Shown here: positions 59,166-63,424 of the stretch, in pieces
How positions within the stretch are numbered: the first letter of the stretch is position 1
Layout: the number at the start of each line of letters is the position of its first letter
Origin: Sulfobacillus acidophilus DSM 10332
GTDB taxonomy: Bacteria > Bacillota > Sulfobacillia > Sulfobacillales > Sulfobacillaceae
Length of the DNA: 64,000 nucleotides
NCBI GenBank assembly: GCA_000237975.1
Contig: CP003179.1
Coordinates: forward strand, 1,302,001-1,366,000
Direction of reading: 5' to 3'
Notes under the pieces: generated by a model
What the model was told of the DNA's origin: nothing
What the model saw: the letters and a program-made list of their open reading frames with translations, nothing else
Database searches by the model: none
Made by a program: the position numbers and the translations under genes

Positions 59166-59302
59166 TAATGCTAGCCTAATTGGGCGATAAACACCAGTAC
59201 CGGTCGCGGCCAGAACGACCGTGGAAGTCGTTAATCCGGGGAATAGGGTGTCCCAAGCTCATATCCCGGGTCCGAACGGCTGAAGATCTGGCCGACTTTC
59301 CG

Positions 59303-59335: not shown

Positions 59336-59530
59336 AAATACCGGTGTTGACGTCGTCCCCCGGTTGCGCTGACGCCCGGTGAGGAAACGAATATCCTAGA
59401 GACGGCTTTACCGGGGGCATCCTAATGTCGGGCGGGTCTTGGGAGCCGTAATACCGGTCTTTTCGAAAAGGGTGGTCTCTCTTATGGGTGCGATGCGGGG
59501 CGGGATCTCTAGGCGATAGGGAGGATAACG
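59336..59530 (+). promoter_or_regulatory. Long structured leader of the TusA-like gene
   Basis: CCCCCGGT near 59357 pairs with ACCGGGGG near 59410, enclosing a 45-base domain with an AGGA/TCCT inner pairing. A second hairpin (CTTTTCGAAAAG near 59458-59469) follows, and GGGAGG lies just before the ATG. No T-box or known riboswitch consensus was recognised. It may be a regulatory RNA, but structure alone does not prove it. Confidence 0.4.
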
Positions 59531-59836
59531 ATGCGTGAGGTGGATTGTAACGGTTTTTCCTGGATTCCTCATGTGGTTCGGATTGCCCAAGCGGTCCGCC
59601 AAAGTCGAGTAGGCGACGAAATCCGTATCTGGTCCGACCGGGACGACATGCTGGCGGAGGTGCGCGCGTTTGCCCACACCACCGGCAACCACGTCAGCGG
59701 TATCGAGTGGCGACGTACGACAACTTTCATGATGGAGCCGGATGCCCGAGGGTCCTATAATGCCCGGCCCCATCCCGTCCCGAGCCTGGAAATGGTCATT
59801 ACGTTACGCATTTTACCGACGAATCGACTGCATTAG
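59531..59836 (+). CDS. TusA-fold protein lacking the active Cys
   Basis: A 101-residue protein whose first 70 residues follow the TusA/SirA fold: VDCNGFSWIPHVVRIAQAVR, then VGDEIRIWSDRDDMLAEVRAFAHTTGNHVSGIEW. In TusA the sulfur-carrying Cys is in GLxCPxP; here the segment is GFSWIPH, so the Cys position is Trp. A Cys at residue 6 lies nearby and could substitute, but this is speculation. It lies beside the CsoR-family gene and the DsrE-Hdr operon, which points to sulfur handling or sensing. Confidence 0.65.
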   Translation: MREVDCNGFSWIPHVVRIAQAVRQSRVGDEIRIWSDRDDMLAEVRAFAHTTGNHVSGIEWRRTTTFMMEPDARGSYNARPHPVPSLEMVITLRILPTNRLH

Positions 59837-60127
59837 CTAACCGGAACGCAGGACATCTTTGATCACGGTGCGTACTTGAGTGGCATCAAGCTGGCCGTCG
59901 GAAATTTCGACAACCCGCTCGGCGACACTACAGGCGGAAATAATGCGGGCCACTTGTTTGATGGCTCCTTCAATTGCTGCGACTTGGGTCAGAACCGCTT
60001 GGCAGGATTCCGCACGTTGTACCATCGCTTCGACACCGCGCACCTGGCCTTCAATTCGCCGGAGTCGACGCATCATATCCTCCACGTCCCAAAACACTTC
60101 ACGGACATTTGGTGATGTCGGTTGCAT
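59837..60127 (-). CDS. CsoR/FrmR-family repressor with atypical sensor residues
   Basis: A 96-residue all-helical DUF156 protein: RRLRRIEGQVRGVEAMVQRA, then Cys42 in ESCQAVLTQVAAIEGAIKQV. Canonical copper CsoR has His and Cys 25 and 29 residues after this Cys; here those positions are Ser67 and Arg71, while a different Cys (Cys66) sits at +24. Copper sensing is therefore unlikely; a persulfide or electrophile sensor using Cys42 and Cys66 is more plausible. The ATG at 60127 is favoured over one six bases upstream for ribosome-site spacing. It is the last gene of a three-gene minus-strand operon divergent from dsrE-hdr. Confidence 0.82.
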   Translation of the reverse strand: MQPTSPNVREVFWDVEDMMRRLRRIEGQVRGVEAMVQRAESCQAVLTQVAAIEGAIKQVARIISACSVAERVVEISDGQLDATQVRTVIKDVLRSG

Positions 60128-60142
60128 GATCATCCCTCATTT

Positions 60143-60487
60143 CTATGGATTAAAAAGGCCTTTTTGCCACGCCTCATCGAGTGTATGGTTCCAATCGTGC
60201 CAACTTGACGGAGCGGGCATGCGTTCCAATAGCCAGATAGCATACCAAAACGCCGCCCTAAGGGCATCGGGCGGTATTGACAACTCGTGAGCCCAGGTCG
60301 GCAATCCGGGATGCAATTCCAGCCGTTTGAGCACCTCCGGGACGGCTTCGCCGGTGGCCCGCAAATAAGGCGCGCCATCGGCCCGTTGAGGATCGTGACC
60401 GATGTGCTTGAAGATAACCCAATAAGGAAAATCCGGGTGACTTCGGGTATCCACCCAATAGTCGGTGCGTAGGCTCTCTTCGTCCAT
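60143..60487 (-). CDS. Protein of unknown function, second gene of the csoR operon
   Basis: A 114-residue soluble protein rich in Trp, Pro and His (DTRSHPDFPYWVIFKHIGHD, LPTWAHELSIPPDALRAAFWYAIWLLE, SWHDWNHTLDEAW). A strong AGGAGG precedes the ATG. It lies 15 bases before the CsoR-family gene and 44 bases after the next unknown, so the three are likely one transcript. No domain is recognised. Confidence 0.6.
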   Translation of the reverse strand: MDEESLRTDYWVDTRSHPDFPYWVIFKHIGHDPQRADGAPYLRATGEAVPEVLKRLELHPGLPTWAHELSIPPDALRAAFWYAIWLLERMPAPSSWHDWNHTLDEAWQKGLFNP

Positions 60488-60531: not shown

Positions 60532-60855
60532 TTACTCGGAAGCGGGACGATTGTCGACCAGTTCGCCCAATTCGTCGTTGCCGCGCGATTTACCTTGGAG
60601 CAGAAGGCGAAACGGGAGGCCCTGGCGGGTGACTTCGATTTGCCAGTGGCCGATGGCGGGTGGCTTGGCCGCCCCTTGCGGGATGAGGTCGGCCCGCATC
60701 GCCAGCCGATAATCGTCAAGGGGTTCGTAGTAGGGTAAATGATCCATTTTGCCAAAATTAATATTTCGTAACGCCCGATTTAATTCCGACAGCCATTCGG
60801 TCTGGCCGGGAAACCACTGATCGAGACTTGAAAGCGGCTCAACGCGGCGATCCAT
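60532..60855 (-). CDS. Protein of unknown function, first gene of the csoR operon
   Basis: A 107-residue soluble protein (SSLDQWFPGQTEWLSELNRALRNINFGKMDHLPYYEPL-like composition, then WQIEVTRQGLPFRLLLQGKSRG). No Cys or membrane segment. It has an AAGGGGGAAA ribosome site and faces away from the dsrE-hdr operon across a 150-base A/T-rich gap. No family is recognised, but its position suggests a role connected with sulfur oxidation or its control. Confidence 0.6.
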   Translation of the reverse strand: MDRRVEPLSSLDQWFPGQTEWLSELNRALRNINFGKMDHLPYYEPLDDYRLAMRADLIPQGAAKPPAIGHWQIEVTRQGLPFRLLLQGKSRGNDELGELVDNRPASE

Positions 60856-60906: not shown

Positions 60907-60935
60907 TTGTAAGTTGAATAATATCAGAGTACACT
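60907..60935 (+). promoter_or_regulatory. Promoter of the dsrE-hdr operon
   Basis: TTGTAA at 60907-60912 and TACACT at 60930-60935 with a 17-bp spacer, in an A/T-rich gap. The start would be near 60942, inside or just before the palindrome at 60946-60967. Confidence 0.65.
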
Positions 60936-60945
60936 AACAATTGGA

Positions 60946-60967
60946 ACACCTGTACCGGTATTGGTGT
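60946..60967. promoter_or_regulatory. 22-bp palindrome just downstream of the dsrE-hdr promoter (candidate operator)
   Basis: The site reads ACACC-TG-TACC-GGTA-TT-GGTGT; nine of eleven positions in each half match the other half. It covers about +5 to +26 relative to the predicted start, where a bound repressor would block transcription. CCAATTG at 60880-60886 and CAATTGG at 60938-60944 form a further inverted pair flanking the promoter. The divergent operon's CsoR-family protein is the natural candidate ligand, by inference. Confidence 0.55.
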
Positions 60968-61005: not shown

Positions 61006-61470
61006 ATGCAAGACCGATTGGCCATTGTGTGTTCCAAGGGCACGCTGGATATGGCATATCCTCCCTTTGTGCTGGCGACGGCCGCAGCCGCGATGGACAT
61101 GGAGTGTATGCTGTTTTTTACCTTTTGGGGATTAGACATCATTAACCGCCATAAAATTGACTCGCTGGAAATTTCTATTGCGTCCAATCCCGGCATGCCT
61201 GCTCTGGCGAAAGTCGCGGGTGTGGTGCCCGGGGGGACCCATATGGTGAGCACCATGATGAAAAGTCAGTTTGCCAAATCGAATGTGATGAGCATTCGGG
61301 AGTTTGTGGGAACCGCCAAAGAGATGGGGGTCCACATGGTCGCTTGCCAGATGTCGATGGACGTCATGGGCGTCAAGCGGGAAGACCTGATACCGGAAGT
61401 GGAAGATGTGGTAGGGGCCGCGACGTTTCTGGATTTTGCCCGCGAGGCGAAAATCAGCCTCTTTGTCTAG
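61006..61470 (+). CDS. DsrE/DsrE2-family sulfur carrier protein
   Basis: A 154-residue DsrE-like protein (LAIVCSKGTLDMAYPPFVLA, MECMLFFTFWGLDII, LAKVAGVVPGGTHMV) with the conserved Cys in VACQMSMDVMGV (Cys114) and two more at positions 9 and 35. Proteins of this kind pass persulfide sulfur between TusA, rhodanese and sHdr in sulfur oxidisers. It has GAGGAGG with a seven-base spacer and heads an operon with hdrC, hdrB and hdrA. Confidence 0.88.
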   Translation: MQDRLAIVCSKGTLDMAYPPFVLATAAAAMDMECMLFFTFWGLDIINRHKIDSLEISIASNPGMPALAKVAGVVPGGTHMVSTMMKSQFAKSNVMSIREFVGTAKEMGVHMVACQMSMDVMGVKREDLIPEVEDVVGAATFLDFAREAKISLFV

Positions 61471-61502: not shown

Positions 61503-62195
61503 ATGACGTTGCCGTCAAACCTGTATCAAGACGTGCCGTATGAAGAGAAACAGCGCTTATTTGAACAGGTCAAGGCTGATCCGCGCTACAAAGACTACTT
61601 GTACGGCTGTTATGAATGCGGCATTTGCGTGGCGGCTTGCCCCTCGGCCCGGTTTTATGATTTTTCCCCACGCAAAATTGCCCAGACTCTCGCTCGTGAG
61701 GACATTGAATTATTTTACGAACAGTTGAATGACGACGTGTGGAATTGCTCGCAATGTTTTTCCTGCTTGCGGTGTCCCCGACAAAACAACCCCGGCGGAC
61801 TAATCACCATTATGCGCGAAGTGGCCGTCAATAACGGACTGAAAACCACAAAAGAGGCGCTGGCCGGCTACACGCGGATTATCTACAAGATTATGACCAC
61901 CGGTACTCAGGTCTCCCCGGATATGTTACAAGAAGACGCGTTTCCTGATTGGGGCCCCCAGGTTAAGGAAGTGGCCCAAAATCTGGAACTTTGGCGTCGT
62001 GCTTTGCCTCCCGAAACCTTACACACCACCGGACTCTCCTGGCAAGTGGAAGAACGCACCATGTTAGAGCTCTATACCATTTGGAAACTGACCGGGGTAC
62101 TCGATATGATTACCGAACTGGATGAGGGGCTACACGACATCATGGAAGAAGTGATGGACGACGCGCTGGAAGAAAGCGGGTTTCAAGTCCAGTAA
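61503..62195 (+). CDS. hdrC1: Heterodisulfide reductase-like iron-sulfur subunit HdrC (sHdr type)
   Basis: A 230-residue protein with two 4Fe-4S motifs: Cys36-39-42-46 (CYECGICVAACP) and Cys82-85-88-91 (CSQCFSCLRCP); the second has only two residues before its last Cys. The remainder is helical with an acidic C-terminus (EEVMDDALEESG). In sHdr it links HdrA to the HdrB catalytic subunit. It follows dsrE by 32 bases and precedes hdrB by 23. The numbering 'C1' reflects the usual hdrC1-B1-A order. Confidence 0.88.
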   Translation: MTLPSNLYQDVPYEEKQRLFEQVKADPRYKDYLYGCYECGICVAACPSARFYDFSPRKIAQTLAREDIELFYEQLNDDVWNCSQCFSCLRCPRQNNPGGLITIMREVAVNNGLKTTKEALAGYTRIIYKIMTTGTQVSPDMLQEDAFPDWGPQVKEVAQNLELWRRALPPETLHTTGLSWQVEERTMLELYTIWKLTGVLDMITELDEGLHDIMEEVMDDALEESGFQVQ

Positions 62196-62218: not shown

Positions 62219-63424
62219 ATGGATTCCATCGATTTGCCGATTGTTCGTCGGGGAACCGTACCCGAAACCCAGAGGACCTTTACGCCGGACCCGGAGACGG
62301 CGCGAGACGAAGACCTGCGTGAAGCGATTTGGGAGCTGGGCCGGGAAGGCGAATGGATCGTCCAGCCGGTACCCGAGCCCTTTTATGAAGCCAAGACCAA
62401 GTATGGCCGGACCAAAAAAATTCCTTTGCAGAAGACCTGGCATCATAAGAGTTGTGGGCAATGCGGTCATATTCCGGGCTATTCGACCTCGATCTTTTGG
62501 TTGAATCGCCTGTTGAAATACGATTATTTCGATCCCCGTGACCAAACCTCGTGTACCGCCTGGAACTATTATGCCTCCGCCACCTCGAACCAGGTTGCGC
62601 AAGCGGCGGTAGCCATGCGGAATTTCGCGGCCGCGTATGAAACCGGATATTACCCGTTGATTCATTGCGGCACGAGTTTTGGCCACTACAAAGAAGTGCG
62701 TCATGAATTGGTGCACGACCATGAGTTGCGGCGCAAAGTGCGGGACGTGATGACCAAATTAGGCCGGCCCTTCGTGATGCCGGAAGAATTGGTGCATTAC
62801 AGCGAATGGATGTATGCCATCCGTGATGAGCTCAAAAACCGCCTGGTTTATGATGTCTCTCCGATTACGGCGACGGTTCATCCCGCCTGCCACTATTACA
62901 AGCTGCAATCGCAAGATGCCATTTACGACCCGGAGATCTACGGCGGTCAGCGGACGGCAGCCGTTACGGCCGTGGTGCAAGCCCTTGGAGCGCAGGTGGC
63001 GGACTACTCGACGTGGTTTGATTGTTGCGGATTTGGGTTTCGCCACATCTTAGTGCAGCGGGACTTTACCCGCAGTTTCGCCACGCTGCGTAAAATCGAG
63101 GTCATGAAACAAGAAGCCAATCCCGATGTGGTGCTGACGCATGACACCGGCTGCGTCACGTCATTGGATAAGAGCCAGTTTGCCGCCAAAGCGCATCAAC
63201 GGAACGTCGGGGTGCCGGTTATGTCGGAGTCCCAATTTGCGGCGTTGGCGGTCGGGGCCCATCCGTTCCGGGTGGTGCAACTGCATTGGCACGCGACGGA
63301 TTACCGGCCCTTATTGGAAAAGATGGGCATCGACGTCGAGAAGGCGTGGGCGGAGTTCCAAGGGGATCTCAAGCAGTTGGAAAGTGGGGCAATGGAGCAT
63401 CTCACATGGGAAGCGGTGCTCTAA
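62219..63424 (+). CDS. hdrB1: Heterodisulfide reductase-like subunit HdrB (sHdr type)
   Basis: A 401-residue CCG-domain protein. The first CCG-like region has Cys79 and Cys82, a single Cys in TSCTAWNYYAS where the paired Cys would be, and HCGTSFGH. The second has HPACHYYK, the intact pair Cys269-Cys270 in FDCCGFGF, and TGCVTSLDKS. In methanogens these motifs hold noncubane clusters that reduce heterodisulfides; in sulfur oxidisers the homologue is thought to oxidise a bound sulfane. The first motif is therefore incomplete. GGGAGGAGG precedes the ATG. Confidence 0.85.
   Translation: MDSIDLPIVRRGTVPETQRTFTPDPETARDEDLREAIWELGREGEWIVQPVPEPFYEAKTKYGRTKKIPLQKTWHHKSCGQCGHIPGYSTSIFWLNRLLKYDYFDPRDQTSCTAWNYYASATSNQVAQAAVAMRNFAAAYETGYYPLIHCGTSFGHYKEVRHELVHDHELRRKVRDVMTKLGRPFVMPEELVHYSEWMYAIRDELKNRLVYDVSPITATVHPACHYYKLQSQDAIYDPEIYGGQRTAAVTAVVQALGAQVADYSTWFDCCGFGFRHILVQRDFTRSFATLRKIEVMKQEANPDVVLTHDTGCVTSLDKSQFAAKAHQRNVGVPVMSESQFAALAVGAHPFRVVQLHWHATDYRPLLEKMGIDVEKAWAEFQGDLKQLESGAMEHLTWEAVL

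Follow-up and report, generated by a model that had tools for sequence, protein, structure and literature searches.

The CsoR-family protein TTHA1953 of Thermus thermophilus HB8 represses sulfur oxidation from an experimentally defined operator, TACNNTACNNNNGTANNGTA; a one-base change in the central spacing alters its affinity 10-15-fold, mutation of the triplets abolishes binding, and its consensus, unlike most CsoR operators, has no stretch of four or more G/C bases (PMC10318464). In Staphylococcus, CstR is a persulfide-sensing, CsoR-like repressor that senses via Cys31 and Cys60 (PMC9774590). The sulfur-oxidation genes of Hyphomicrobium denitrificans are repressed by sHdrR and SoxR, two sulfane-sulfur-responsive members of the ArsR family, and it is through ArsR repressors that control of Hdr-like sulfur oxidation has been experimentally described in an alphaproteobacterium (PMC12423496). 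In the literature that we searched, we found no description of a regulator of the Hdr-like route for the Sulfobacillus group, acidophiles that are employed in bioleaching. Here, we analyzed a stretch of 64,000 nucleotides of Sulfobacillus acidophilus DSM 10332 (hereafter, the window), in which a sequence-only reading had proposed a palindrome at the start of the dsrE-hdr transcript as the operator of a divergently encoded CsoR-family repressor.

Results

A Dyad Lies Just Downstream of the Presumed dsrE2 Promoter

The dsrE2-like gene is the first of an operon that continues with hdrC-like and hdrB-like genes and with an FAD-oxidoreductase (hdrA-like) gene running past the end of the window (Table 1). 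Upstream, TTGTAA and TACACT are separated by 17 bases and plausibly form the promoter for dsrE2 and for the hdrC-/hdrB-like genes behind it. The 22-mer ACACCTGTACCGGTATTGGTGT starts 10 bases past TACACT, and the conserved 20-bp core within it 11 bases past; it is self-complementary at 18 of 22 positions, that is, in 9 of 11 pairs, and has no G/C run of four or more bases. The sequence-only reading had described a 22-bp dyad with 18 matching positions, about ten bases after the −10 and facing an operon that ends in a CsoR-family gene, and it proved accurate on all three points, the last gene of the divergent unit being a PF02583 member.

Pairing alone does not raise this dyad above chance: eight 22-mers with at least 9 of 11 pairs occur in the 64-kb window, compared with about 10 (range 7-16) in 20 first-order Markov shuffles of the window. 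Since dyad statistics cannot carry the claim alone, we compared relatives, and the significance of the element comes from its conservation, its matrix score and its uniqueness in the genome. As one ground for abandoning the operator, the sequence-only reading had named a random frequency across the genome together with a lack of conservation; the dyad does occur at random frequency in the window, yet it is conserved in relatives.

Table 1. Positions of the dyad, the promoter elements and the surrounding genes in the window
Feature	Position	Strand	Sequence or basis
22-bp dyad, proposed CsoR-family operator	60946-60967	.	Pairing, conservation in relatives, matrix, genome pattern search
Conserved 20-bp core within the dyad	60947-60966		CAC-CTG-TAC-CG-GTA-TTG-GTG
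−35 element of the dsrE2 promoter	60907-60912	+	TTGTAA; TTGTAA-type with 17-bp spacer in most relatives
−10 element of the dsrE2 promoter	60930-60935	+	TACACT
Weakly TusA-like 101-aa gene, convergent with csoR	59531-59836	+	PF01206, E 0.0019, below cut-off
CsoR-family regulator gene, last of the divergent unit	59837-60133	-	PF02583, 7.9e-18; alignments; fold
Conserved 114-aa protein gene in the csoR operon, no family assigned	60143-60487	-	
Conserved 107-aa protein gene, first of the divergent operon	60532-60855	-	
dsrE2-like sulfur carrier gene, first of its operon	61006-61470	+	PF13686, 1.4e-45; NF047629 below its cut-off
hdrC-like iron-sulfur subunit gene	61503-62195	+	Profile matches
hdrB-like subunit gene (CCG domain)	62219-63424	+	Profile matches

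The Element Is Conserved in dsrE2 Leaders of Genomes Carrying This csoR

Of the family's 34 genomes, 26 were found to carry dsrE2, and we read the sequence upstream of it in gene orientation. All dsrE2 leaders from genomes with this csoR (11/11, csoR-linked loci from six genera, g1, g2, g4, g6, g8 and g10) share a 20-bp element that follows a TTGTAA-17-TANAAT-like promoter and conforms to HAC-N3-TAC-SS-GTA-N3-GTD. The element reads CACCTGTACCGGTATTGGTG in the window, CACCGGTACCCGTACCGGTG in G005, CACCTATACCGGTAGTGGTG in G012, AACCCATACCCGTACCGGTG in G026, TACCCATACCCGTACCGGTG in G027, TACACATACGGGTAAGGGTG in G002, AACCTATACCCGTACCCGTA in G008 and AACCTATACCCGTATCCGTA in G007, while in G021, G022 and G028 its right arm is decayed. 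Within the 20-bp frame, all 11 agree in AC at letters 2-3 and in the inner triplets, TAC on the left and GTA on the right; the arms of the relatives' sites pair at 4 to 9 of 10 positions, most at only 4-6, the dyad thus being imperfect. The gap from the −10 to the element is 8-17 bases across the 11 loci (the −10 of G005, G007, G008 and G026 was picked by eye, the automatic choice being wrong there), and between the element and the start codon lie about 15 to 70 bases. Such a steady distance on one side against a variable one on the other ties the position of the element to the promoter rather than to translation.

The element was not found in the dsrE2 leaders of g9 and g11, two sister genera without the neighboring csoR. 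Just past TATCAT, these leaders show a different dyad, GCTAGT-N8-ACTAGC in three g11 genomes (L017, L019, L020, L025 set) and CTAGACTAAAGTACTAG in two g9 genomes (L015, L016, L021, L024 set), with degenerate forms in others. Taking the place of the site at loci without the linked csoR, this CTAG-type dyad suggests, from the leaders compared, a swap of operators with a different reader. At one of the loci concerned (G033:C148:209-771, L025/L029), the dsrE2 match is fragmented and one fragment lies on the other strand, possibly owing to an assembly error or a small inversion.

Matrix and Pattern Searches Single Out the dsrE2 Site

We scanned the 64-kb window with a symmetric matrix trained leave-one-out, with the window site excluded. 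The site scores 23.5 bits; the runner-up, at 10.5 bits, is a register shift overlapping the same site, and the best unrelated place reaches 10.0 bits. Likewise, the dsrE2 site ranks top in each of the relatives' csoR-linked loci (10/10), with 20.4-27.1 bits compared with at most 13.6 elsewhere, and no score above 12.4 bits was obtained in dsrE2 regions lacking a linked csoR (L096-L100).

Genome-wide statements on the site come from pattern searches. The pattern HACNNNTACSSGTANNNGTD has 13 matches in the 34 genomes, 8 of which are dsrE2-leader sites. In its own genome (3,557,831 bases, including a chromosome of 3,472,898 bp), the genome search that the sequence-only reading had called for returns a single exact match, the site at the dsrE2-hdr promoter; allowing one mismatch adds eight places, seven of them inside long ORFs. 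A reversed control pattern is more frequent than the true one, so that this control shows just the rarity of the true pattern. A looser 22-mer consensus with three mismatches was dropped because, unlike the 20-bp triplet pattern, it matched about as often as its reversed control and was thus uninformative. Because the exact site is single in the genome, the regulator looks like a one-promoter type, with possible self-regulation in addition.

Two further places in the window were considered. A partial match, CACCAGTACCGGTCGCGGCC, lies on the minus strand at 59192-59211, about 27 bases upstream of a lipid kinase gene; as a second site, the sequence there (CACCAGTACCGGTC) was rejected, since its leave-one-out score of 8.8 bits ranks about seventh in the window, level with chance. 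The other is the related core that the sequence-only reading had noticed at 59339, before the tusA-like gene, and from which it had tied both sulfur transcription units to one regulator. The core is present as TACCGGTGT but scores just −1.5 bits, lacks both outer triplets and is not conserved, no counterpart of the element being found upstream of the relatives' tusA-like genes. We thus discarded it as an operator, and the proposal of a shared regulator is not supported.

The Divergent Operon Encodes a Two-Cysteine CsoR-Family Protein

The csoR product matches PF02583 with 65.1 bits (cut-off, 22.8), and its predicted model has the three-helix CsoR fold (mean pLDDT 80), the best matches being InrS (Z 10.6), CsoR (9.9) and CstR (9.9). 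Cys44, the family cysteine, stands at the start of helix 2 (residues 44-79 in the model) and is invariant in relatives; a second cysteine, Cys68, lies within the same helix, 24 residues further on, and is invariant in the aligned relatives. The His (+25) and Cys (+29) ligands of copper CsoR are missing, with Ser69 and Arg73 at these positions, and the CstR-type pair of cysteines 29 residues apart is not present either, +29 being Arg here and varying in relatives. Judged by these residues, the protein is neither a copper CsoR nor a CstR, and redox or sulfane-sulfur sensing is the likely mode of a two-cysteine protein at a sulfur locus. When the search was extended to 299 genomes across the phylum, no close relative of this CsoR turned up outside the family.

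Elsewhere in the genome (L101:4887-7307, corresponding to C1:1555886-1558306) lies the gene for a second CsoR paralog, whose cysteines are spaced as in the window protein. It is divergent from DUF302-, persulfide-dioxygenase-like metallo-beta-lactamase- and thioredoxin-like genes, named by eye from their sequences and not by family search, and ATACCCCATGAGGTAT lies between.

Among the Local Genes, the Site Follows csoR

We then compared the distribution of the site with that of each gene of the divergent operon. A linked csoR is present at the element-bearing loci. In g9 and g11 it does not accompany dsrE2; the nearest CsoR proteins of these genera show no more than about 52% identity, and their genes lie elsewhere in the genome. 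In G005, where the dsrE2 contig ends, csoR and the 114-aa gene are on another contig than the site, and linkage is presumed. The 107-aa gene accompanies most dsrE2-hdr loci whether they have the site or not, including those of g9 and g11, and the 114-aa gene is also present in g9 and g11 genomes, which have no site, while G007 keeps csoR and the site and lacks both other genes. As neither the 107-aa nor the 114-aa gene follows the site, csoR is singled out among the local genes. The 114-aa protein was also rejected as a DNA reader on its model (low confidence, pLDDT 61; no significant fold match).

Site presence thus follows the linked csoR and no other gene of the divergent operon, within the limit of shared phylogeny: both csoR and the site follow the tree, g9 and g11 having neither, so that the co-occurrence is not 11 independent events and not proof. 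Counter-cases, with a related csoR and no site, were found in G003, on contig C118 of G005 and in G011, which has no dsrE2; the window CsoR groups loosely with two of them in the tree, and the G005 copy is its closest relative, with about 76-78% identity. In G005 (L084:7447-8613) and G003 (L086:4185-5004), csoR lies behind a dsrE2 copy on the same strand, with no site upstream.

That the element is conserved across genera only where the neighboring csoR is kept makes it very probable that it is the landing site of this repressor. The operator assignment of the sequence-only reading is therefore supported, with the site at 11/11 csoR-linked loci, in none of the loci without csoR and apparently of a TTHA1953-like build. 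Taken together, these findings make it likely that the divergently encoded CsoR-family protein, a putative repressor controlling dsrE2-hdr, uses the element as its operator.

Conservation reveals an operator and not its reader, and a true dsrE2-hdr operator could be read by a regulator encoded elsewhere, such as the second two-cysteine paralog (C1:1558040) or an ArsR-type sulfur sensor from an unlinked locus, of the kind found in Hyphomicrobium, whose ArsR repressors respond to sulfane sulfur and govern thiosulfate oxidation with the shdr genes (PMC12423496). Three PF02583 proteins are encoded in the genome, and the different dyad found at the same place in g9 and g11 indicates that at least one change of reader has probably occurred. 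We nevertheless regard an outside reader as unlikely, given that the site goes with the linked csoR rather than with the 107-aa or 114-aa gene, that the second paralog is adjoined by its own, different dyad and that a CsoR-family operator has this triplet frame (PMC10318464).

The two remaining explanations dispense with a repressor. The element is self-complementary and lies inside the presumed transcribed leader, as would suit a 5′-UTR hairpin or an initially transcribed sequence acting in the leader RNA or in initiation; however, the conserved letters are those of the TAC/GTA triplets, arm pairing is not kept and leaves no loop, and it is the −10 distance that is held while the start-codon distance drifts, which makes such a role highly improbable. 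Even less credible is a functionless chance palindrome: although 22-mer dyads of this kind arise at random frequency in the window, 11 genomes from six genera have kept this one at the same place in the promoter region, and it is unique in its genome.

Discussion

Under the preferred reading, in which the divergently encoded CsoR-family protein reads the site, a CsoR tetramer, or two as in relatives, would grip two pairs of TAC/GTA-type triplets over 20 bp (YAC-N3-TAC-SS-GTA-N3-GTR). Sitting at roughly +5 to +25 relative to the dsrE2-hdr transcription start, the reduced protein would block initiation or promoter clearance and, as the site lies between two divergent units, may repress its own operon too. 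A reactive sulfur species, probably persulfide or polysulfide from sulfur oxidation, would then modify Cys44 and Cys68 and lead to release. More tentatively, the protein could represent a distinct CsoR subfamily with cysteines 24 rather than 29 residues apart, which senses reactive sulfur and governs dsrE2-hdr via a compact 20-bp operator in the Sulfobacillus-related family, while sister genera without the linked repressor have, at the same promoter position, an unrelated CTAG-type dyad read by another regulator; we see this broader picture as possible, with the odds somewhat against it. If true, CsoR-type control of sulfur oxidation would reach beyond the sox genes of Thermus to the Hdr-like pathway and would there involve differently arranged cysteines. 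As a 20-bp site and a named protein are defined, the proposal is testable.

Among the described systems, sHdrR and SoxR share with the window protein its proposed function, repressing sulfur-oxidation genes in a manner responsive to sulfane sulfur, but belong to the ArsR family, with an unrelated fold and operator. CstR is closer, having the same fold, the first cysteine and a sulfur-metabolism target linked to the regulator gene; it differs in that its targets are detoxification genes and in that the position of its Cys60 is Arg in the window protein, whose second cysteine lies five residues earlier. TTHA1953 pairs C39 with C68 (29 apart), whereas the window protein has C44 and C68 (24 apart), and its sox targets in Thermus are unlinked to the regulator, unlike the linked dsrE2-hdr. 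Its operator is spaced TAC-N2-TAC-N4-GTA-N2-GTA, as opposed to YAC-N3-TAC-N2-GTA-N3-GTR in the window and relatives, so that here the inner triplets sit 1 bp nearer the center on each side than in the site of that spacing-sensitive protein. In the window (CAC..TAC..GTA..GTG), each outer triplet is one letter off the TTHA1953 type, and G027 and G002 have TAC..TAC..GTA..GTG. Both systems nevertheless have a 20-bp palindromic frame with two outer and two inner TAC/GTA triplets and need no G/C tract of at least four bases. TTHA1953 represses sulfur-oxidation genes, has no metal role and is under redox control via two cysteines, and the window protein would resemble it in each respect, with two invariant cysteines of its own. 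To judge from the letters, the element thus looks like an operator of the TTHA1953 type, with a spacing that is not identical.
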